Assembly (NCBI GenBank): GCA_938017915.1
Contig: CALIKW010000066.1
Span: 1-20,177, forward strand
DNA: 20,177 nt
Direction: 5' to 3'
Source: an uncultured archaeon
GTDB lineage: Archaea > Aenigmatarchaeota > Aenigmatarchaeia > CG10238-14 > SCSR01
Positions 6,245-20,149 of this stretch are shown here, one piece after another. The stretch's first letter is position 1. Each line of letters opens with the position of its first letter. A model generated the notes under the pieces. That model was not told the origin of the DNA. It did no database searches and saw only the letters and a program-made list of their open reading frames with translations. The position numbers and the translations under genes are program-made.

Positions 6245-7171
6245 ATGAAAGAAAAAATTTTTTTATCTTTTGGCTTAATTTTAGTCTTATTCCTTTCTGG
6301 TTGTACTTTGCCATGGTTTAAACCAGCTTTACCTACTTACAAGGATGATGCAGTAACTATAGAGGATTATGCAGTTTCTTCTACAGAACCTTATGCAGGA
6401 AGTTCTGTTACAATCAAATTCCTTGTTCAAAATAATATAGAGGATAAAATTGAGAATATAGAAGTTAATTTCTTTGACCTTTCTGGCTTTTCGTTTCAAT
6501 CCCTGGACTGTGGCCCAAATTCGAAACAAGTAGATAAAACTTGCTTTTTTAGCTTGGATAGCTTGGATTATCAACCGATTAAAATAACTCTTCTAGCTCC
6601 TTCAAAAAATGTTATTACAGCTCCAATAAGCTTTTCTGTAAGTTTTTATGTAAAATATACCATAAAATCTAAGAGAAGTGTTATGATACCTGTTGTTGAT
6701 GGGGTAATAAAAACTGAGCCAGAATCTAGCTTTCTAGTTAGCGAGCAAAAGCGTGGCCCAGTTAGAGTTGACTTCGATTTTCCGATTAAAAGAGTAAGGA
6801 AGGAAGATAATAGAGAAATTGTTGAAAGATGGGTTGTTGCAGGAGAACCCTTTGAAACTAAGATAACTTTTAGTCATACAGGAACTTTGGCAGATGTACA
6901 ACCAATTAATATCTCAGGTGACAGCATAAGAATCCAGCTTAATAGAATAACATACGCTACCCCACTTCCATGTGATTTTAATCCTTTAACTGGTTCCTCC
7001 ACTAAAAACATTATACTTCTTTCAACAAGTGAAAGAAAAGTTTTAAGCTGCAATTTCAACGCTCCAGATACCACTTATCCTGAATATTTGGCTGAACTTT
7101 CTATAGAGTATACTTATGCTTATACTTTCATTAAAAAGGAAACTTTTACTGTTAAACCCGCTATCTTTTAA
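6245..7171 (+). CDS. lipoprotein, first and most divergent of a four-gene paralogous array
   Basis: Protein of 308 residues. The signal peptide is MKEKIFLSFGLILVLFLSGC with lipobox LSGC and lipidated C20, so the product is anchored on the outer face of the membrane. The mature part is beta-rich: an early domain with a TEPYAGSSVTIKFLVQNN strand pattern typical of Ig-like or CARDB-like folds, then a second domain starting near GPVRVDFDFPIKRV. The C-terminus (PCDFNPL, then LSCNF, IEYTYAYTF) matches the ends of the next three proteins, including a pair of Cys that could form a disulfide. It lacks the YDYYKRT motif of the other three. The role is unknown; adhesion or ligand binding at the surface is inference. 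Confidence 0.8.
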   Translation: MKEKIFLSFGLILVLFLSGCTLPWFKPALPTYKDDAVTIEDYAVSSTEPYAGSSVTIKFLVQNNIEDKIENIEVNFFDLSGFSFQSLDCGPNSKQVDKTCFFSLDSLDYQPIKITLLAPSKNVITAPISFSVSFYVKYTIKSKRSVMIPVVDGVIKTEPESSFLVSEQKRGPVRVDFDFPIKRVRKEDNREIVERWVVAGEPFETKITFSHTGTLADVQPINISGDSIRIQLNRITYATPLPCDFNPLTGSSTKNIILLSTSERKVLSCNFNAPDTTYPEYLAELSIEYTYAYTFIKKETFTVKPAIF

Positions 7172-7203
7172 ATTTATATTCACAAGATTTTAAATTAAAA
7201 TTG

Positions 7204-8067
7204 ATGAATATGAAGAAAATACTTGGGTTATTGGCATTAATAGGAATAATATCACTTTCAGGTTGTGTAGTTCCAGGAGTTCCTACAGCACCAGTAGGAG
7301 GAGAAATTGCAATTGGCATGCTTGTTGAGGAAACAACTGTTCCAAGGGGTTCTCCACTTGGAGTTACAGTAACTGTAGAGAACAAGGCTTTAGTTCCTGT
7401 AGAGAATGTGTATGCAGAAGTTTACGGACCTTTAGACTGGTCAGGATTTAGTAAGAAAGGTCCTTACACAATTAGGCCAGAAGAATCAAGAGATTTTTAC
7501 TGGGTTTTAACAAGTCCTACAGTTTTTGCTGATACAAGGTATACGTTGTATGGGAAAGTTCAATATGATATGAAGGTAAATAAGACTTTTACAGCAACCA
7601 TAGTTACTTATGATTATTATAAGAGGACAAAGAAAATTTCTACTGTTGAAGAATCTGCAACAAATGTTGGTGGGCCAGTAAGTATTTCGATATCTGCAGC
7701 AGGTGCTCAGAGGTATATATATCCTGAACAAGAAAGCATAAGGTTCCCAGTAAAAGTTGTAATAAACAACAGGGGCTCAGGAAAAGTCTTCCTACAAGGA
7801 AGTCAGCCAACCTTAGAGGATGGGTTGAATAAAGTAAACGTAACTGTAAGCTCAACTAAGAATGTATTAAGTTGTGCAGATGTTCCAGGAACAGTAACTT
7901 TAGGAAAAGATGGAACGTATGTCTTAATATCATGTGATTTAATAATAAGCAGAGCAGATATTGAGGCAAGTGGAATAGCAACTTATACAGGAACAGTAAC
8001 AGTCCAATTTAGCTATATCCAAGACTTTAGTTCACCAAGCATAACAGTAACTGCATTGCAAAGATAA
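7204..8067 (+). CDS. lipoprotein, second of the paralogous array
   Basis: Protein of 287 residues from the ATG at 7204 (a further ATG at 7210 is possible; a TTG at 7201 is in frame but less likely). The lipobox LSGC gives lipidated C21. An Ig-like first domain carries VPRGSPLGVTVTVENKALVPVENV; then comes the array's signature YDYYKRT, followed by GGPVSISI, a NNRGSGK turn, an LNKV segment, two Cys about 22 apart (LSC and ISC) and the terminal FSYIQDFSSPSITV. The close match to the next two genes in all these segments shows tandem duplication. A TTTATATT box at 7171-7179 is about 27 bases before the ATG, so the gene probably has its own leaderless promoter. The function is not recognised. Confidence 0.82.
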   Translation: MNMKKILGLLALIGIISLSGCVVPGVPTAPVGGEIAIGMLVEETTVPRGSPLGVTVTVENKALVPVENVYAEVYGPLDWSGFSKKGPYTIRPEESRDFYWVLTSPTVFADTRYTLYGKVQYDMKVNKTFTATIVTYDYYKRTKKISTVEESATNVGGPVSISISAAGAQRYIYPEQESIRFPVKVVINNRGSGKVFLQGSQPTLEDGLNKVNVTVSSTKNVLSCADVPGTVTLGKDGTYVLISCDLIISRADIEASGIATYTGTVTVQFSYIQDFSSPSITVTALQR

Positions 8068-8141
8068 ATTTTTTCCAATTTTAATTTTTTGAAATTTTCT
8101 TAATTTTTATTTTATATTTTTGAAAAAGAAAAAAATATTTG

Positions 8142-8987
8142 ATGAAGAAGTTTGCATATCTTTTTCCACTGGTCCTAATATTCCTTTCAGGTTGTGTTCA
8201 GACTTCTGTCCAGCCAACTAAGACAAAGGATGTAAAAATAGAGTTAAGAGTAGAAACAACAAACATACAATCTGGTGGAAAGGTTGGTGTAAGTATAACA
8301 GTAGAAAATAATGCTGAGTTTAAAATAGAAAATGTAAAGGCAAGAGTATATGGACCTACTGATGACTGGGAGGGATTGGGGGAAACTAAAAGTTGTAGGA
8401 ATCTTCATACACAGACAGGATGCGAACTTAGTTGGAAACTTAAAGCTCCTTCTGTTGAATATAAAAAATATTATCAAATATTTGCTGACGTTAAATATAA
8501 TGGTTACAATAAGAAAAGGGTGATAATTACAGGAGTAGGTTATGATTATTATAAGAGGACAGGAAGAGAATCAGCAATTACCTTTTCTGATTCACTTGGT
8601 GGACCTATAGAAATAGATATTGTTCCTTACCAATCACAATTAATTGCTTATGAAGATAACTTACCCTTTAAGTTTGCTGTTATAATATCGAATAAAGGAA
8701 GAGGAAAGCCATGCTCAGACTATTTTAATCTTAACTGTAATAAGGAAAATTTGAATAAGGTTTTATTTGATTTTAAGAGAGAAACTTCTAATATTGAAAT
8801 ATCCTGCGAGAAAAGTGGTGAAGTTAATTTAATTAAATCTGGAAGCTATGCTCATTTCGATTGTGTAGGTAATTTAATTAATGTGAAAGATATTTCAACT
8901 CAAATAATAGAATTTTCAGTAAATTATGCTTACATAGAGACATTAACTTCTCCTTCGATAGGAGTCGAACCTGTCATACTTAAGTGA
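8142..8987 (+). CDS. lipoprotein, third of the paralogous array
   Basis: Protein of 281 residues from the ATG at 8142 (an in-frame TTG precedes it). The lipobox LSGC gives C18. It has the same order of segments as its neighbours: IQSGGKVGVSITVENNAEFKIENV, YDYYKRT, GGPIEIDI, SNKGRGK, LNKV, paired Cys, and SPSIGV at the end. It is the most Cys-rich copy, with extra pairs CRNLHTQTGC and CSDYFNLNC that could be disulfides outside the membrane. T-rich DNA at 8068-8121 lies between it and the second copy and holds a TATA-like TTTTATATTTT, pointing to a separate transcript. The function is not recognised. Confidence 0.82.
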   Translation: MKKFAYLFPLVLIFLSGCVQTSVQPTKTKDVKIELRVETTNIQSGGKVGVSITVENNAEFKIENVKARVYGPTDDWEGLGETKSCRNLHTQTGCELSWKLKAPSVEYKKYYQIFADVKYNGYNKKRVIITGVGYDYYKRTGRESAITFSDSLGGPIEIDIVPYQSQLIAYEDNLPFKFAVIISNKGRGKPCSDYFNLNCNKENLNKVLFDFKRETSNIEISCEKSGEVNLIKSGSYAHFDCVGNLINVKDISTQIIEFSVNYAYIETLTSPSIGVEPVILK

Positions 8988-9015
8988 TTTATATTTTAAA
9001 GTTTAAATATTTCTT

Positions 9016-9864
9016 ATGAGAAAATTAACAATTTTACTTTTAATTCCCCTACTTTTACTTTCAGGTTGCGTAGGACAAATTCCAGGAATTCAAACAGGTG
9101 CTAAGGGAGGGGATATTTCTGTAAGCTTAAGCGTTGATTCTACCGAAATTCCTGCAGGAAATCCCTTAGGATTAAGTATTTCGATAGAAAATAGAGCAAT
9201 GATGCCAATTAAAAATGTTAATATTTTTATAACAAAGCCGGAAAAATGGACTCAAGTTTCAGGACCGCCCAGTTTCCCAGATATACAAAGAGATGGTATA
9301 TGGGAAGGTATTTGGTTATATACAGCACCTTCTTCAGTTATGGTTGACACACCCTATAAGTTTTACGCAAGAATAACTTTTTCCATGAGTACAAGTAGGG
9401 GGGTTTCTGTAACTCTTGTTTCATATGATTATTATAAAAGAACAGGAGAAAGATCTAAAGTCTCAACACAAACTCCAGATACCGGAGGACCCATAGGAAT
9501 AGAGTTTGGTCAACTTGGCCAAATGAGTTACATGTATTCTGGTCAAGGAGCAACAATTCCATTAAAGGTTATAATTTCAAACAGGGGAGCTGGAAAAGCT
9601 TATGTGGGTAATGAACCGAGCTCAACAAATTTAAATAAAGTTAAGTTCTCGTATACAGGAGATTTCTTTAGTTGCTCAATTCCTTCGGGTGAAATAGTGT
9701 ACTTAATGAAAGAAGGTTCTGTAGCAACTGTAATGTGCAATATTAATATTCCTGCTAATCAAGTAACAGATATTAAAACAATTTCAGTTTCTGTTACAGT
9801 AGAGTATAATTACGTATATGATTTAGTTTCTCCTACAATTACAGTTAGATCAACAACATATTAG
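9016..9864 (+). CDS. lipoprotein, fourth of the paralogous array
   Basis: Protein of 282 residues. The signal peptide MRKLTILLLIPLLLLSGC ends in the lipobox, with C18 lipidated. Shared segments are IPAGNPLGLSISIENRAMMP, YDYYKRTGE, GGPIGIEF, SNRGAGK, NLNKV, two Cys in FSC and VMC, and VEYNYVYDLVSPTITV at the end. A loop with KPEKWTQVSGPPSFP and IWEGIWLY is Trp-rich and unlike the others, a candidate ligand-facing region. TTTATATT at 8991-8998 is about 22 bases before the ATG. The gene ends 17 bases before the convergent tRNA-Val gene. The function is not recognised. Confidence 0.82.
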   Translation: MRKLTILLLIPLLLLSGCVGQIPGIQTGAKGGDISVSLSVDSTEIPAGNPLGLSISIENRAMMPIKNVNIFITKPEKWTQVSGPPSFPDIQRDGIWEGIWLYTAPSSVMVDTPYKFYARITFSMSTSRGVSVTLVSYDYYKRTGERSKVSTQTPDTGGPIGIEFGQLGQMSYMYSGQGATIPLKVIISNRGAGKAYVGNEPSSTNLNKVKFSYTGDFFSCSIPSGEIVYLMKEGSVATVMCNINIPANQVTDIKTISVSVTVEYNYVYDLVSPTITVRSTTY

Positions 9865-10090: not shown

Positions 10091-10348
10091 ATGCAAATTA
10101 AAATCTTCAAATCACTTTCAGATCCTACAAGATTAAAAATAGTAGAGCTTTTAGCAAAAAAGGAAATTTGTGCTTGTGAGTTTGTTCCTTTTGTGAAAAA
10201 GGCTCAACCAACAGTTTCTCAACATTTGAGAATTTTAGAGAATGCTGGTATAGTTAAATCTAGGAAGGAAGGAAAAATGGTTATTTACTCTCTTGCAAAC
10301 CCAAAAGTTATTGAAATGATAAAAATCGCTAAGAGGATGAGCAAATGA
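10091..10348 (+). CDS. ArsR/SmtB-family transcriptional regulator
   Basis: Protein of 85 residues, short but complete for the family. A winged helix is clear: LSDPTRLKIVELL (9-21), the recognition region QPTVSQHLRILENAGIV (39-55) and the wing KEGKMVIYSL. C27 and C29 in EICACEF sit where As(III)-type ArsR proteins have their ELCVC ligands, so a soft metal or metalloid, or a thiol-reactive signal, is a plausible inducer. It is probably the repressor of its own operon through the palindrome just upstream. Its stop codon overlaps the ATG of the permease gene (ATGA), which suggests translational coupling. A second ATG at 10083 is out of frame. Confidence 0.9.
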   Translation: MQIKIFKSLSDPTRLKIVELLAKKEICACEFVPFVKKAQPTVSQHLRILENAGIVKSRKEGKMVIYSLANPKVIEMIKIAKRMSK

Positions 10349-11448
10349 TTCAAGATATAATTTTTAAAGCAATTAATGGTGGAATTTCTGCAATTCTCGA
10401 TTACTTAGGAGCTCATGTTCTAACTTGCTTGGTACCAGCTTTTTTTATAGCTGGAGCAATGTCTGCTGTATTACCAAAAGAAAAGATAACTAAATACCTA
10501 GGTAAGAATTCCCCAAAGTATTTAGCATATCCTTTATCAGTAGTTGCTGGCTTACTATTAGCGGTTTGCTCTTGCACAATTTTACCTTTATTCGCAGGAA
10601 TAAAAAAGAAAGGAGCAGGTATAGGCCCTGCTATAGCTTTTTTATATACTGCCCCTGCTACAAACCTTCTTGCCATAGTTTTTACAGGAGCATTAATTGG
10701 TTGGGACCTTGCTATTTCTAGAATATTGCTATCTATAACTTTTGCTGTATTAATTGGAATTATCATTTCCAAATTTTTCAAGGAAGAAGAAAAAGAGGAA
10801 AAAGAGCTTGTAAGCAGGCTTATAGAAGAGCAAAGAAAATTAAATGGTATAGATGGTTTGCCATTGTACAAAAGAGTTGTCAAAAAACTAGAGTACAATA
10901 GATTAGTAATTTTTTTTGCTATACTGTTTGCAATTTTAATTATCGGCGCTTGGAAAATGTTTGAAAGTATAAGATTAGTTAGTTTAACTTTTTTAATATC
11001 ATTTCTCTTAATTGTTGTTAAGTCTTGGTTTAAAAAAGATGAAGTTAAAAATTGGTTAAAAGAAACTTACAGATTTTTCAAAACAATTTTTCCTCTACTT
11101 TTAGTAGGTGTTTTTATAGCAGGAATTTTAACATCTTTACTTCCAGAAAAGTTTTTAGCTAGCTATATGGGTAGTAATACTGTGCTTGCAAATTTTGTGG
11201 GTGTTCTTTTCGGAGTTTTCATGTACTTTCCAACTCTTGTTGAAGTACCGATGGCTAAAATGTTTCTTGCTTTGGGTATGGCTAGAGGTCCTTTGCTTGC
11301 ATACTTATTGGCAGACCCTGTCACCTCATTACCAAGCTTGCTTGTTGTTAGAAAAATAATGGGAACAAAAAGAACTTTGGTTTATGCTCTTCTCATCACA
11401 ATATTTTGCACTTTAGCTGGTTTAATTTACGGCAGTTTTGCAGGTTGA
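10345..11448 (+). CDS. ArsP/DUF318-type permease
   Basis: Protein of 367 residues with about eight to ten membrane helices in two homologous halves: each half has a SAVLPKEKITKYLG or TSLLPEKFLASYMG segment that marks the repeat. AVCSCTILPLFAGI (73-86, with C75 and C77) and YTAPATN (101-107) are signatures of the DUF318/ArsP permease family. Characterised ArsP members export trivalent organoarsenicals; many relatives are uncharacterised, so the substrate here is open. The charged cytoplasmic loop near 145-180 separates the halves. The paired Cys in the permease, in the regulator and in the thioredoxin downstream suggest that all three handle the same thiophilic ligand. Confidence 0.85.
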   Translation: MIQDIIFKAINGGISAILDYLGAHVLTCLVPAFFIAGAMSAVLPKEKITKYLGKNSPKYLAYPLSVVAGLLLAVCSCTILPLFAGIKKKGAGIGPAIAFLYTAPATNLLAIVFTGALIGWDLAISRILLSITFAVLIGIIISKFFKEEEKEEKELVSRLIEEQRKLNGIDGLPLYKRVVKKLEYNRLVIFFAILFAILIIGAWKMFESIRLVSLTFLISFLLIVVKSWFKKDEVKNWLKETYRFFKTIFPLLLVGVFIAGILTSLLPEKFLASYMGSNTVLANFVGVLFGVFMYFPTLVEVPMAKMFLALGMARGPLLAYLLADPVTSLPSLLVVRKIMGTKRTLVYALLITIFCTLAGLIYGSFAG

Positions 11449-11493
11449 TTAAATGAAACAAAAATTTTTAAAATTTAAAGGAATTAAAATCAA

Positions 11494-11502
11494 GAGGTGA
11501 TC
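11494..11502 (+). promoter_or_regulatory. strong ribosome binding site of the thioredoxin-like gene
   Basis: GAGGTGATC is a nine-base match to the complement of the archaeal 16S rRNA 3' end. The core GGTGA ends four bases before the ATG at 11505, which fixes that start. It contrasts with the leaderless look of most genes here and fits an internal cistron of the arsR operon. Confidence 0.8.
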
Positions 11503-11504
11503 AA

Positions 11505-11744
11505 ATGAAAATTGAAATACTGGGACCTGGTTGCCCAAAATGCATAGTAACAGAAGAAATAGTAAAGAGAGTTGTGAATAAGCTTGGGATAAAAGCAGAA
11601 GTTGAGCATGTGTATGATATAGAGAAAATTATAGATTATGGAATTATGATGATACCAGCAGTTGCTATAAACGGTGAAGTAAAAATTGAGGGCAAAATTC
11701 CAACAGAAGAAGAAATTGAAGAAATAATTAAAAATTTAAAGTAG
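11505..11744 (+). CDS. small thioredoxin-like redox protein (CPKC, MTH895 type)
   Basis: Protein of 79 residues. The active-site motif CPKC is at 10-13, right after the first strand (KIEILGPG). The cis-Pro region is MMIPAVAINGEV, and a final helix is rich in Glu. This is the compact Thioredoxin_3 fold (MTH895/TM0996 type), smaller than classical thioredoxins. It lies 56 bases after the permease and is probably in the same transcript, though an AT-rich stretch at 11462-11480 could hold a separate promoter. ArsR, DUF318 permease and this thioredoxin form a recurrent genomic trio. It may reduce or deliver the permease substrate; this is inference. Confidence 0.9.
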   Translation: MKIEILGPGCPKCIVTEEIVKRVVNKLGIKAEVEHVYDIEKIIDYGIMMIPAVAINGEVKIEGKIPTEEEIEEIIKNLK

Positions 11745-16394: not shown

Positions 16395-16892
16395 ATGAAA
16401 AAAGAAAAAATTTTATTAAATTTAAAACCAAAGCCTTCATTAACAGCATACTTTTTTGTTTCAAGAGGTTTGATAATGATTTTAGCAATTTCTCTAGCTT
16501 TTTTTCTAACTTCGCCGCTAATTTTTAACATTTTTTTCACCCCCTCAAACAAACTTTCTGTTTACAATTCTGTTTTTGCAGTAAACCTTTGGATTTTATT
16601 GGGCATAGCACTTTCATTTTTTATTTCTATACTTTACTGCAATAATTTAAGGAAATCGTTAAGGCTTAAAGTAGTTGGCTCTTATATTTATTTAAAAGGA
16701 GGAATTTTTTTTAAAAATGAAACTATAATACCTCTTGAAAGTTTAAAAACAGCTCAATCTTCCCAAAATTTTATAGAAAGGATTTTTAAAATTTCTAGAA
16801 TTAAAATTTACTTTAATAATTCTTGCGTAGAATTTCCTGGAATAGAAAATAGTTTTGAAGTTGCTAATTTACTTTTAGAATTAAAGTCCTAA
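16395..16892 (+). CDS. membrane protein with a bacterial-type PH domain (YdbS/DUF304-like)
   Basis: Protein of 165 residues. Two membrane helices (about 22-47 and 64-82) are followed by a C-terminal beta-rich domain: LRLKVVGSYIYLKGGIFFKNETIIPLESL, then the TAQSSQNFIERIFKISRIKIYF segment that marks the bPH2/DUF304 family. Such proteins are small membrane proteins of unknown function, common in bacteria and archaea. The ATG is supported by the TATA box at 16368-16376. The last 12 bases overlap the convergent acetyl-CoA synthetase gene. Confidence 0.75.
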   Translation: MKKEKILLNLKPKPSLTAYFFVSRGLIMILAISLAFFLTSPLIFNIFFTPSNKLSVYNSVFAVNLWILLGIALSFFISILYCNNLRKSLRLKVVGSYIYLKGGIFFKNETIIPLESLKTAQSSQNFIERIFKISRIKIYFNNSCVEFPGIENSFEVANLLLELKS

Positions 16893-18809
16893 GACCTTTT
16901 TTATTTTCTCAATACTTTCAGGATTTGCTAGAGTAGTTAAATCACCCAACTCTTCCTTTAATAAAATTTTTTTAAGTACCCTTCTCATAATTTTTCCACT
17001 TCTTGTTTTTGGCAGATCCTCAATAAAAATAATTTTTGCAGGTTTGGCAATTGGGCTAATTTTTTTAGAAACAATTTCCTTAAGTTCTTCTTCCAATTTT
17101 TCAGAAACTAAAAAGCCTGGCTTAAGTGTTACAAAAGCAAGTGGAACTTCGCCCTTTATTTCATCTGGCACTCCAACAACAGCAGATTCTACCACACCTT
17201 CATGAGAATTTAATGCATTTTCTATTTCTCCTGTGCTAAGCCTATGACCAGCAACTTTTATTACATCGTCAACCCTTCCAACAATCCTTATCAAACCATT
17301 TTCATCCTTAAAAGCAGCATCACTTGTAAAGTAAATTTTATTTCCATACTTGCTCCAGTAAGTTTCTAAGTATTTCTTCTCATCCTTATAAATTCCTCTC
17401 AATAAGCCAGGAGGAAAAGGTGGAAGTACAACCAAGTTTCCTTGCTTTCCTTTTTCACACTTTTTTCCTTCTTCATCAAGAATTTCAGCTTTTACTCCAG
17501 GAAAAGGCAAACCAACAAAACCAGGTTTAAAAGGGCCAATTCCTGGCAAAGAAGAAATTAAAATTCCTCCAGTTTCTGTTTGCCACCAGGTATCAACTAT
17601 TGGACATCTTTCCTTTCCAACGTTTTTAAAATACCAAAGCCATGAGGCTTCATCCAACACTTCACCTACTGATCCAAGCAAACGTAAAGTTTTAAACTCA
17701 TACTTTTTTGCAATATTTCCATTCATCCTTTCAAACATTCTTATGGCAGTAGGAGCAGTATAAAAAATTGTTACTTTATGTTTTTCTATAATCTGGGCCC
17801 ATCTGTCTGGAGTTGGATAATCAGGAGCACCTTCAAATATTAAGGTTGTTATTCCGTTAAGCAAAGGAGAGTAGCAAGTATAGGAATGACCAGTAATCCA
17901 ACCAAAATCAGAAGTACACCACAAAACATCTTTTTCATGAAAGTCAAAAATCCATTTTCCGGTTAAGTAAGCTTGAACTGTATAGCCTCCACAAGTATGC
18001 AAAATACCTTTGGGCGTGCCAGAAGTACCTGAGGTAAACAAAATAAAAAGTAAGTCTTCTGAATCCATTTCTTCTGGTTTACATTCATCGCTCTCGTTTT
18101 TTGTTAAATCCTCGTACCAAACATCTTTTTCATTATTCCAAGAAATTTCATTTCCTGCTCTTTTAACAACAATTACTTTTTCAACTTTTGTTTCTTTTAT
18201 TCCTTCATCTGCATTTTGCTTTAAGTTTATTATTTTCCCTCTTCTGTAATAGCCATCAGCAGTAATCAAAAATTTTGCTTCACTAACTTGAAGTCTTGTT
18301 CTTAAGGCTTCAGGAGAAAATGCAGAAAATATTACTGTATGAACTGCACCAATTCTTGCACAAGCGAGCATTGAAATTAAAGTTTCAGGAATCATTGGTA
18401 AGTAAATTCCAACTACATCTCCTTTTTTTATTCCTAGCTTTTTGAGAGCATTTGCAAGTTTGTTGACCTGCTTATAAAGTTCGTAATAGGTAAAAGCCCT
18501 TGGCTTTTCTTCCAAAGGCTCAGGCTCCCAAATCAAAGCAATTTTATCCTTTTTATCTTTTAAATGTCTGTCTAAGCAATTGTAAGAAATGTTAAGCTTG
18601 CCGCCAACAAACCACCTAAAGTAAGGGGGCTCTTCTAAGTAAACTTTTTCCCATGGTTTAAACCAAACTATTTGCCTTGCTTGCTCTTCCCAAAATTTTA
18701 TCGGGTTTTCCCTCGCTTCTTTATAAATTTTTTTATTACTTATCAAAGCAATTTTTTTCATTTCTTTTGTTGGGAAGTAAAGGCCATTTCTTTTTTCAAC
18801 AAATTTCAT
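16881..18809 (-). CDS. acsA: acetyl-CoA synthetase, AMP-forming
   Basis: Protein of 642 residues, full length for this enzyme, which makes acetyl-CoA from acetate, ATP and CoA with AMP and pyrophosphate. The ATP-binding loop FTSGTSGTPKG is at 258-268, the acyl pocket and adenylate motif TWWQTETGG at 407-415, the hinge-region GRVDDVIKVAGHRLSTGEIE at 511-530, and the catalytic, regulable Lys in TRSGKIMRR is K606. The N-terminal NISYNCLDRH is typical of Acs rather than other acyl-CoA synthetases. A propionate or mixed preference cannot be excluded. Minus-strand TATA-like DNA lies near 18830-18837. It stands alone: both neighbours point elsewhere. Confidence 0.95.
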   Translation of the reverse strand: MKFVEKRNGLYFPTKEMKKIALISNKKIYKEARENPIKFWEEQARQIVWFKPWEKVYLEEPPYFRWFVGGKLNISYNCLDRHLKDKKDKIALIWEPEPLEEKPRAFTYYELYKQVNKLANALKKLGIKKGDVVGIYLPMIPETLISMLACARIGAVHTVIFSAFSPEALRTRLQVSEAKFLITADGYYRRGKIINLKQNADEGIKETKVEKVIVVKRAGNEISWNNEKDVWYEDLTKNESDECKPEEMDSEDLLFILFTSGTSGTPKGILHTCGGYTVQAYLTGKWIFDFHEKDVLWCTSDFGWITGHSYTCYSPLLNGITTLIFEGAPDYPTPDRWAQIIEKHKVTIFYTAPTAIRMFERMNGNIAKKYEFKTLRLLGSVGEVLDEASWLWYFKNVGKERCPIVDTWWQTETGGILISSLPGIGPFKPGFVGLPFPGVKAEILDEEGKKCEKGKQGNLVVLPPFPPGLLRGIYKDEKKYLETYWSKYGNKIYFTSDAAFKDENGLIRIVGRVDDVIKVAGHRLSTGEIENALNSHEGVVESAVVGVPDEIKGEVPLAFVTLKPGFLVSEKLEEELKEIVSKKISPIAKPAKIIFIEDLPKTRSGKIMRRVLKKILLKEELGDLTTLANPESIEKIKKVLGL

Positions 18810-18875
18810 AATTAAATTTAATTTTTTGCAATTTAAGAAATTGTTTTAATCCTTAAGCTAGAGCTAAACAGAAAA

Positions 18876-18885
18876 ATTTATATAC
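18876..18885 (+). promoter_or_regulatory. TATA box of the hyperacidic microprotein gene
   Basis: ATTTATATAC is a good archaeal TATA box, 33 to 42 bases before the ATG at 18918. Transcription would start near 18904-18908 and leave a leader of about ten bases that still contains the ribosome binding site GGTGA (18910-18914). Confidence 0.65.
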
Positions 18886-18917
18886 TTTCTGCAAGATTAG
18901 AAAAGATTAGGTGAAAT

Positions 18918-19013
18918 ATGGAAGAAGAATGGGAAGAAGAGGAAGAAGGAGAAGAAGAGGAAGAAGAATGGGAAGAAGAGGAGTTTGAAGAGTTTGAAGA
19001 TGTAGAGGAATAA
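18918..19013 (+). CDS. 31-residue hyperacidic (poly-Glu) microprotein
   Basis: The reading frame ATG to TAA gives 31 residues, of which 23 are Glu and one Asp; the others are M1, W5, G11, W18, F23, F26 and V29. There are no basic residues. A TATA box (18876-18885) and the ribosome binding site TAGGTGA (18908-18914, core GGTGA three bases before the ATG) argue that it is expressed. Glu runs with spaced Trp and Phe suggest a disordered or helical acidic tail that docks on a basic partner such as a nucleic-acid-binding or ribosomal protein; this is inference. I know no family for it. Its first bases (18919-18936) are identical to 3555-3572 at the start of endA. A low-complexity GAA/GAG run translated by chance is the alternative. 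Confidence 0.65.
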   Translation: MEEEWEEEEEGEEEEEEWEEEEFEEFEDVEE

Positions 19014-19017
19014 AAAA

Positions 19018-19037
19018 GTTTTTTCCCTTTTTCTTTT
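19018..19037 (+). terminator. T-rich tract after the microprotein gene
   Basis: GTTTTTTCCCTTTTTCTTTT begins five bases after the TAA. Such T runs end archaeal transcripts. The next gene (AMMECR1, from 19049) has no well-placed TATA box of its own, so read-through is likely and the site may be leaky. Confidence 0.4.
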
Positions 19038-19048
19038 ATATTTTTATT

Positions 19049-19651
19049 ATGCTTTCTTTAGCTCTTGGAAAAAAACTTATTTATCTTGCGAGAAAATGCT
19101 TGGAAAAAAGTTTTGAAAAATTTGAAATTGAAGAAGTTAAGGAGAAAGAGTTAAGGAAAAGGAGAGGGGTTTTTGTAACGTTAAAAGAATTTCCTTCTCA
19201 AGCTTTGAGAGGATGCATAGGCTTTCCTTATCCCTATTATCCCTTATACGAGGCTGTTCAAAGAGCTGCTTTTTCTTCGGCTTTTGAGGATTTTAGGTTT
19301 TCCCCTTTAAAGAAAGAGGAGCTTAATAAAATAGTTATAGAAGTTTCTGTCCTTTCTAAGCCAAGACTTTTAAAAGTTAAGGAGCCAGAAGAATATTTTA
19401 AAAAAATCAAAGTAGGAAAAGATGGGTTAATTTTAAAGAATGGTCCATTTTCAGGTTTATTACTTCCACAAGTTCCTTTAGAAATGAATTGGGATGTAAA
19501 GGAATTTTTGGAAAACCTTTGTTATAAGGCTAATTTAACTCCAGATTTTATTTACGATAAAAATACAAGAATATGGAAGTTTCAAGCACAAATTTTTTAC
19601 GAAGTTAAGCCAGGAGGAATGATTAAAGAATTAACTGAACATGGAAAATAA
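19049..19651 (+). CDS. AMMECR1 domain protein
   Basis: Protein of 200 residues, the full AMMECR1 domain. The family signature LRGCIGFPYPYYPL is at 53-66, with FVTLKEFPSQALRG before it and RAAFSSAFEDFRFSPLKKEEL after it. NGPFSGLLLPQVPLEMNWD is the conserved C-terminal core around a possible active site. The family is found in archaea, bacteria and eukaryotes; its activity is unknown, and C56 with nearby conserved residues has led to proposals of an enzymatic role. It starts 35 bases after the microprotein stop, so the two may share a transcript. Confidence 0.93.
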   Translation: MLSLALGKKLIYLARKCLEKSFEKFEIEEVKEKELRKRRGVFVTLKEFPSQALRGCIGFPYPYYPLYEAVQRAAFSSAFEDFRFSPLKKEELNKIVIEVSVLSKPRLLKVKEPEEYFKKIKVGKDGLILKNGPFSGLLLPQVPLEMNWDVKEFLENLCYKANLTPDFIYDKNTRIWKFQAQIFYEVKPGGMIKELTEHGK

Positions 19652-19864: not shown

Positions 19865-20149
19865 ATGGCTGTAATTGGGGACTTAGTTTTGCTTGGTTTG
19901 GCCTTTCTCTTAGCTCCAGCAATAGCAGAATATGCAAACATAAGGAAAAAGGCAGAAAGGGGCTTTAATTGGATATCATCTGCAGGAGTTTTATTCTTGT
20001 TTGCAGGAACATTAGGTTCAAGCGTAACTCCAGCATCGCTTGGAACACTAGGAGAGCTTTACATCAGAGAACTTTTTTACGTAGTAGGATGGATATTCGC
20101 CTTAATAGGAGCAGTGCTAGGAGCTTATGAAATATTAACTAAGAAATAG
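19865..20149 (+). CDS. small three-helix membrane protein
   Basis: Protein of 94 residues with three hydrophobic segments (about 5-22, 36-53 and 68-88). Charged residues (EYANIRKKAERGFNW) form one loop; the second loop is small and rich in Gly, Ser and Thr. No family is recognised. AAGGAG (19855-19860) is a clear ribosome binding site five bases before the ATG, and TTTAAATA (19827-19834) is a likely TATA box. The upstream stretch 19652-19854 holds no supported gene. Confidence 0.75.
   Translation: MAVIGDLVLLGLAFLLAPAIAEYANIRKKAERGFNWISSAGVLFLFAGTLGSSVTPASLGTLGELYIRELFYVVGWIFALIGAVLGAYEILTKK

Follow-up and report, generated by a model that had tools for sequence, protein, structure and literature searches.

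Hyperacidic, aromatic-containing microprotein genes recurring in the archaeal phylum Aenigmatarchaeota

A hyperacidic 31-residue ORF in a 20,177-nt stretch of DNA from an uncultured archaeon (hereafter the window) was analyzed, and we are almost certain that it is a real protein-coding gene. Similar ORFs recur in the phylum Aenigmatarchaeota as a kind of microprotein that, within the databases and literature searched, was previously undescribed. The gene is well supported, and we infer the mechanism. As the most likely mechanism, we tentatively propose that a disordered polyanion covers the basic surfaces with which proteins bind nucleic acids, with a putative partner and effect.

The window ORF

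The translation of the ORF was MEEEWEEEEEGEEEEEEWEEEEFEEFEDVEE, with 31 residues. It consisted of 23 Glu, 1 Asp, 2 Trp, 2 Phe, 1 Gly, 1 Val and Met1, contained no Lys, Arg or His, and ended in Glu. The first-pass annotation of the window had given the coordinates and composition (23 Glu among 31 residues, no basic residue) exactly to the base, and the TATA box and GGTGA site that it described were both present (Table 1). The ORF was the single one in the window with at least 20 aa and at least 50% Asp/Glu codons (77%). When the whole window was shuffled 200 times with dinucleotides preserved, no such ORF arose, and the highest acidic fraction was 0.318, compared with 0.77 observed. This result upheld the earlier view of the ORF as a gene, as opposed to a run of purines that arose by chance.

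Table 1. Features of the window in and around the hyperacidic gene.
Feature	Position	Strand	Basis
Hyperacidic 31-residue microprotein gene	18918..19013	+	Translation, shuffle test, similar ORFs in 31 genomes
TATA-like promoter element TTATATA	18878..18884	+	Sequence; 40 nt before ATG
Shine-Dalgarno (SD)-like site GGTGA	18910..18914	+	Sequence; 3 nt before ATG
T-rich tract past the stop codon, possible terminator	19019..19048	+	Sequence
AMMECR1-family gene (PF01871), neighbor	19049..19651	+	Pfam 7.7e-51
Acetyl-CoA synthetase gene (acs), divergent neighbor	16881..18809	-	Pfam PF00501, PF13193, PF16177
94-aa hydrophobic protein, neighbor	19865..20149	+	No Pfam match; relatives in 12/36 order genomes

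Distribution of similar ORFs

The AMMECR1 protein was searched in 57 genomes (the window's own, G000, and relatives). The search was then extended to 36 order genomes and 156 phylum genomes, in sets that overlap. The first locus scan covered 231,549 bases (L001-L064, some overlapping) and selected short ORFs in which Asp/Glu exceeded 33% and acidic residues outnumbered basic ones by at least 6. Seven distinct sequences were obtained, all immediately upstream of AMMECR1 on the same strand (G000, G002, G003, G004, G005, G019 and G029). The first-pass annotation had proposed looking in relatives for a short ORF between acs and AMMECR1, and one was found in G005, where acs was divergent as in G000. 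In G002 and G004, acs was codirectional and upstream. AMMECR1 was detected in 23 of the 36 order genomes, and most AMMECR1 genes had no acidic ORF beside them.

With a limit of E 10, a profile of the seven members matched in 3 of the 36 genomes but failed to recover the ORF of the window itself; therefore, DNA patterns were used. These described acid-acid-Trp-acid-acid and a Phe version of it, and in DNA form such genes would be expected as clusters of GANGANTGGGANGAN plus TATA and SD. Matched ORFs were read in the retrieved loci, and all loci were then scanned for acidic short ORFs. Pattern matches that occurred singly lay mostly inside ordinary proteins or in other frames. We kept at least 37 microprotein ORFs in at least 31 Aenigmatarchaeota genomes, numbers that are lower bounds since part of the matches were read. 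At least 28 of these members were found in at least 23 of the 36 order genomes, and at least nine in at least eight of the 120 other genomes of the phylum. Together they span at least 12 family-level groups. No member was found by the patterns and acidic-ORF scans in 13 of the 36 order genomes, which does not imply absence there. The microprotein search covered Aenigmatarchaeota and eight further loci that were included in the acidic-ORF scans; of these eight, only L039, whose record matches G005, contained an acidic ORF.

The window's genome contained a second copy of 18 residues, MEEEWEEEEEETEEEEEW, at G000:C50 (L084, minus strand), with a TATA-like element 39 nt upstream and no SD-like motif by the criteria used. 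A ribosomal protein L18e-like gene lay close by. Tandem pairs were found in G031 and G089. Three sequences were left out of the counts: MQDDVFDPFEDWEDEEESLGI of G010:C69, which was less convincing; MAEEESKEEETKEEEQTEEESKEEETKEEEQSEEEKE of G033, a Lys-containing repeat of a different type; and, in L089, the terminal part of a longer ORF. The member of G124 was added after the composition test, so that the composition set held 36 members and the signal set 37.

Database searches were in line with the earlier statement that no family of this kind had been described, since none was matched in the Pfam, NCBIfam, PDB-sequence and protein-database searches made. Six members had no match in Pfam and NCBIfam at E up to 1. 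For ten members and a Pfam limit of E 10, the sole matches were two at chance level, far below the cut-offs. Among PDB sequences, neither two single members nor a 12-member profile had a match at E up to 10. A search of 5.8 billion proteins with a 43-aa and a 41-aa member returned 78 and 19 candidates, respectively, none of them at E up to 1 and 10. Local phmmer self-matches at this database size gave 1.4e-6 and 2.7e-13, so identical database entries should have been found. The literature searched contained no description of such a microprotein family. It is quite probable that most members form one family. Common descent of all of them would be a further step, and composition-driven convergence is possible, above all outside the neighborhoods of AMMECR1 and the 94-aa protein. 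Genes this short and biased can be lost twice, through length cut-offs and through low-complexity handling. A recurrent part of a small archaeal proteome, which by its promoters may be well expressed, can be overlooked in this way.

Evidence for a protein-coding gene

Closely related members were compared between species. The third codon position held 12 of 15, 7 of 10, 7 of 9 and 13 of 17 base differences in four species pairs, which came from two genera other than the window's, with three pairs sharing species and the window copy in none. The changed codons were mostly synonymous or Asp/Glu exchanges. This pattern indicates selection at the protein level in both genera. A noncoding origin of the ORF, as a microsatellite or as a purine-rich run that arose by chance, could be argued from the window gene, which is almost wholly purine, and from GAA/GAG repeats, which are prone to slippage. 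However, other members freely use GAT/GAC, positions 1 and 2 were kept while third positions changed, and initiation signals were enriched. The shuffles and the codon-position data ruled out such a run, and we assign it a negligible probability.

A TATA-like element 30-70 nt upstream was found in 28 of 37 members, compared with 46 of 452 short non-acidic control ORFs, which are mostly non-genes and were scored from the first ATG only. An SD-like motif lay at most 18 nt from the start in 26 of 37 members and 19 of 452 short controls; the member count is somewhat inflated because, among several possible starts, the nearest ATG or the one better spaced from the SD was taken (e.g., TTG in G020, G023, G027 and G033). 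Both signals together were found in 18 of 37 members (tallied by hand), compared with 4 of the 452 controls. Among long ORFs of the same loci, scored by the same criteria, the TATA-like element preceded 6 of 53, the SD-like motif 3 of 53, and both 0 of 53, although in these ORFs the first ATG may be a wrong start or the gene may be operon-internal. One or more runs of at least four T lay within 60 nt past the stop codon in every member except that of G028 (36 of 37), a count from AT-rich DNA taken without a control. The initiation signals say that the members resemble genes with their own signals, and expression strength is not implied. The window ORF is probably a genuine gene with its own transcription.

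Composition, aromatic spacing and C-terminus

The Asp/Glu share of the 36 members was 64% on average, with a minimum of 46%. Charge was the most constant feature, and it was accompanied by strong initiation signals. Both would suit a polyanion that simply serves, by its charge alone, as an abundant buffer for cations or hydration. However, aromatic residues and Trp were enriched and evenly spaced, and a charge buffer needs neither. We consider the buffer quite improbable.

Eleven members that had been found by position or acidity alone, without the aromatic pattern, served as a bias control. Aromatics made up 30 of the 98 non-acidic residues in these members, compared with 13.5% in 12 ordinary window proteins, and Trp made up 17 of the 98, compared with a background of 1.5%. 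The P values of the tests on composition, C-terminal residue and spacing are too optimistic because the members are related. Successive aromatics were spaced by 4, 5 and 6 residues 18, 17 and 16 times, compared with 10.6, 9.0 and 7.6 times in shuffles. Spacings of 1 and 2 occurred 1 and 4 times, compared with 16.7 and 14.4. The spacing test included pattern-found members, and the pattern bars aromatics beside the matched Trp or Phe, so that the depletion at 1 and 2 arises partly because adjacent aromatics are forbidden. Some members had fewer than two aromatics, for example G010b with one.

The C-terminal residue was aromatic in 21 of the 36 members (5.1 expected). It was aromatic in 7 of the 11 pattern-free members (1.2 expected) and in 20 of the 28 order members (3.8 expected). 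Outside the order, 1 of 8 ended in an aromatic residue and most ended in Glu. The window copy, G002, G018, G022, G028, G010 and G031b had non-aromatic ends. Bacterial SSB and T7 gp2.5 carry an acidic C-terminal tail that ends in an aromatic residue and is attached to a DNA-binding domain. The same acidic run with a terminal aromatic was found in the members in part, chiefly within the order. This excess of aromatic ends speaks for a docking peptide, whose C-terminal aromatic would enter one specific pocket to recruit or block a replication or repair protein in trans. However, the SSB and gp2.5 tails are joined to an OB-fold domain, whereas no such domain is attached to the members, which are free-standing, each ORF having a start codon and a stop codon of its own. 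The mostly Glu-ending members outside the order and the Glu end of the window copy also argue against it. A docking peptide of this kind is unlikely.

Genomic context

Members were found beside several kinds of genes. Those of G020, G021, G023, G027, G029 and G031 were convergent with a radical-SAM/UPF0004/TRAM protein, identified by Pfam for G021 and through similar N-termini for the others. The G022 member was convergent with a TRM5/TYW2-type methyltransferase, and the G018 member with a similar protein. The G026 member lay between a class-V aminotransferase and acs, and the G034 member adjoined alanyl-tRNA synthetase. In G008, G010, G016 and G024, the acidic ORF lay shortly upstream of relatives of the window's 94-aa hydrophobic protein. 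Across the 12 order genomes that have them, relatives of this protein were often near AMMECR1 or an acidic microprotein. The acidic gene itself is the constant unit, and it is not tied to any single neighbor.

These contexts bear on whether the acidic ORF could be a leader peptide or a cis-acting upstream ORF that regulates AMMECR1. Its place just upstream of AMMECR1 in seven order genomes, and the gap of 35 nt between the two genes in the window, agree with such a role. However, most members lie away from AMMECR1, and several have neighbors in convergent or divergent orientation. Members are also present in G008, G009 and G010, incomplete genomes in which no AMMECR1 was detected. A structured RNA was rejected: positions 18600-19400 gave no Rfam match at the gathering threshold, and the RNA fold was not unusual (z -0.63). 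A leader peptide was rejected on account of the members that adjoin unrelated or convergent genes, or whose genomes had no detected AMMECR1, and we regard a cis-acting role as very improbable.

Proposed function and related systems

The product would be too charged for folding alone and is predicted to be an extended disordered polyanion. Its aromatic side chains are spaced along the chain, often with one at the very C-terminus. We tentatively propose that it acts in trans, binding abundant proteins on the basic face with which they contact nucleic acids. Its acidic stretches would replace the phosphates of DNA or RNA, and the aromatics would be anchored in hydrophobic pockets. As an outcome, the microprotein might chaperone, recycle or damp the bound proteins. 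The third-position excess, the enriched initiation signals and the enrichment and spacing of the aromatics speak for this reading. The composition also suits the role suggested earlier, in which an acidic tail would act on a basic protein that binds DNA or RNA.

Histones were considered the first candidate partner. Histone PF00808 was above the cut-off in 35 of the 36 order genomes, the sole miss being G035, which is 74% complete. This co-occurrence does not discriminate because histones are near-universal in the order. Gene linkage to histones was unsupported: none of the 40 histone loci examined, of 65 listed, had an acidic short ORF nearby. The only such case was G028, looked at in addition to these 40, where a histone gene is followed after 42 nt by the acidic microprotein in the same orientation (L178, 425-772). 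The members with non-aromatic ends, and the 13 order genomes in which no member was found, also count against the proposed mechanism.

Acidic segments of histone chaperones offer a likeness for the proposed capping of basic surfaces. Histone binding by the acidic segment of FACT needs negative charge as well as two aromatics (PMC6629675). The segments described there (FACT Spt16 and the double anchor of APLF) likewise combine negative charge with at least two aromatic anchors and are able to replace DNA on histones. The window copy, an acidic chain with 2 Trp and 2 Phe, has this feature. The chaperone segments are parts of large proteins and are partly reliant on phosphorylation, whereas the acidic chain makes up the entire protein in the members, for which binding is putative.

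DSS1/Sem1 was the second system compared. The members are about half as long as DSS1. The DSS1/Sem1 family PF05160 was not matched by six members at E up to 1 or by ten at E up to 10, and HMMER is weak on such sequences. DSS1/Sem1 is likewise small, acidic and disordered, and its hydrophobic or aromatic residues flanked by acidic ones are binding sites (PMC4232310, PMC9381478). Its acidic-Trp motifs bind ubiquitin (PMC9381478, PMC4232310). Aromatics a few residues apart in an acidic chain, as in Dss1, were found in the members, with an excess at spacing 4 and also at 5 and 6. For the members, a ubiquitin system and a PCI or BRCA2-type partner would be hypothetical.

A DSS1/Sem1-like adaptor would bind a ubiquitin-like modifier or stabilize a helicase- or proteasome-like assembly via acidic-Trp motifs. 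It gains support from the excess at spacing 4 and from the motif W-x-x-x-W with acidic x (PMC9381478), which is literally present in G053 and G070. However, spacings of 5 and 6 were as common as 4, whereas the optimum given for the Dss1-type motif is two or three residues between aromatics (PMC9381478). The members scanned did not match PF05160, and they are shorter. They also end within the acidic-aromatic chain, as judged by sequence only, whereas a C-terminal helix, F55-K66, is described for Dss1 (PMC4232310). We consider such an adaptor doubtful, and less probable than a docking peptide.

Returning to the capping of basic surfaces, a broader picture is possible, and we put it forward with more reserve than the mechanism itself. 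The members might be free-standing acidic-aromatic disordered microproteins, widespread in Aenigmatarchaeota and with dedicated promoters, which would act in trans as DNA or RNA mimics on histones or other nucleic-acid-binding proteins. They might then be functional equivalents, in prokaryotes, of DSS1/Sem1 and the acidic segments of histone chaperones, overlooked by gene finders and homology tools. If they bind histones or other basic proteins, they would give a route to ask how such archaea handle those proteins. Such binding would likewise give a route to ask how a protein can consist of acidic-aromatic disorder on its own.

Additional observations

A second conserved small protein of 45-54 aa with two C-x-x-C pairs (M..WKNIKCP.C.KPN...) was observed upstream of AMMECR1 in L005, L006, L008 and L009 (G033, G034, G021 and G029). 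Its G021 copy had no Pfam match. In G029, the acidic ORF lay between this small protein and AMMECR1. Elsewhere in the window, four consecutive ORFs with lipoprotein-like starts (..LSGC..) occupied positions 6245-9864, and the last three looked alike by eye, a possible local duplication. An ArsR-like regulator, a permease-like membrane protein and a small thioredoxin-like protein followed one another at positions 10091-11744, a row that presumably resembles a metal/arsenic-type export cluster.
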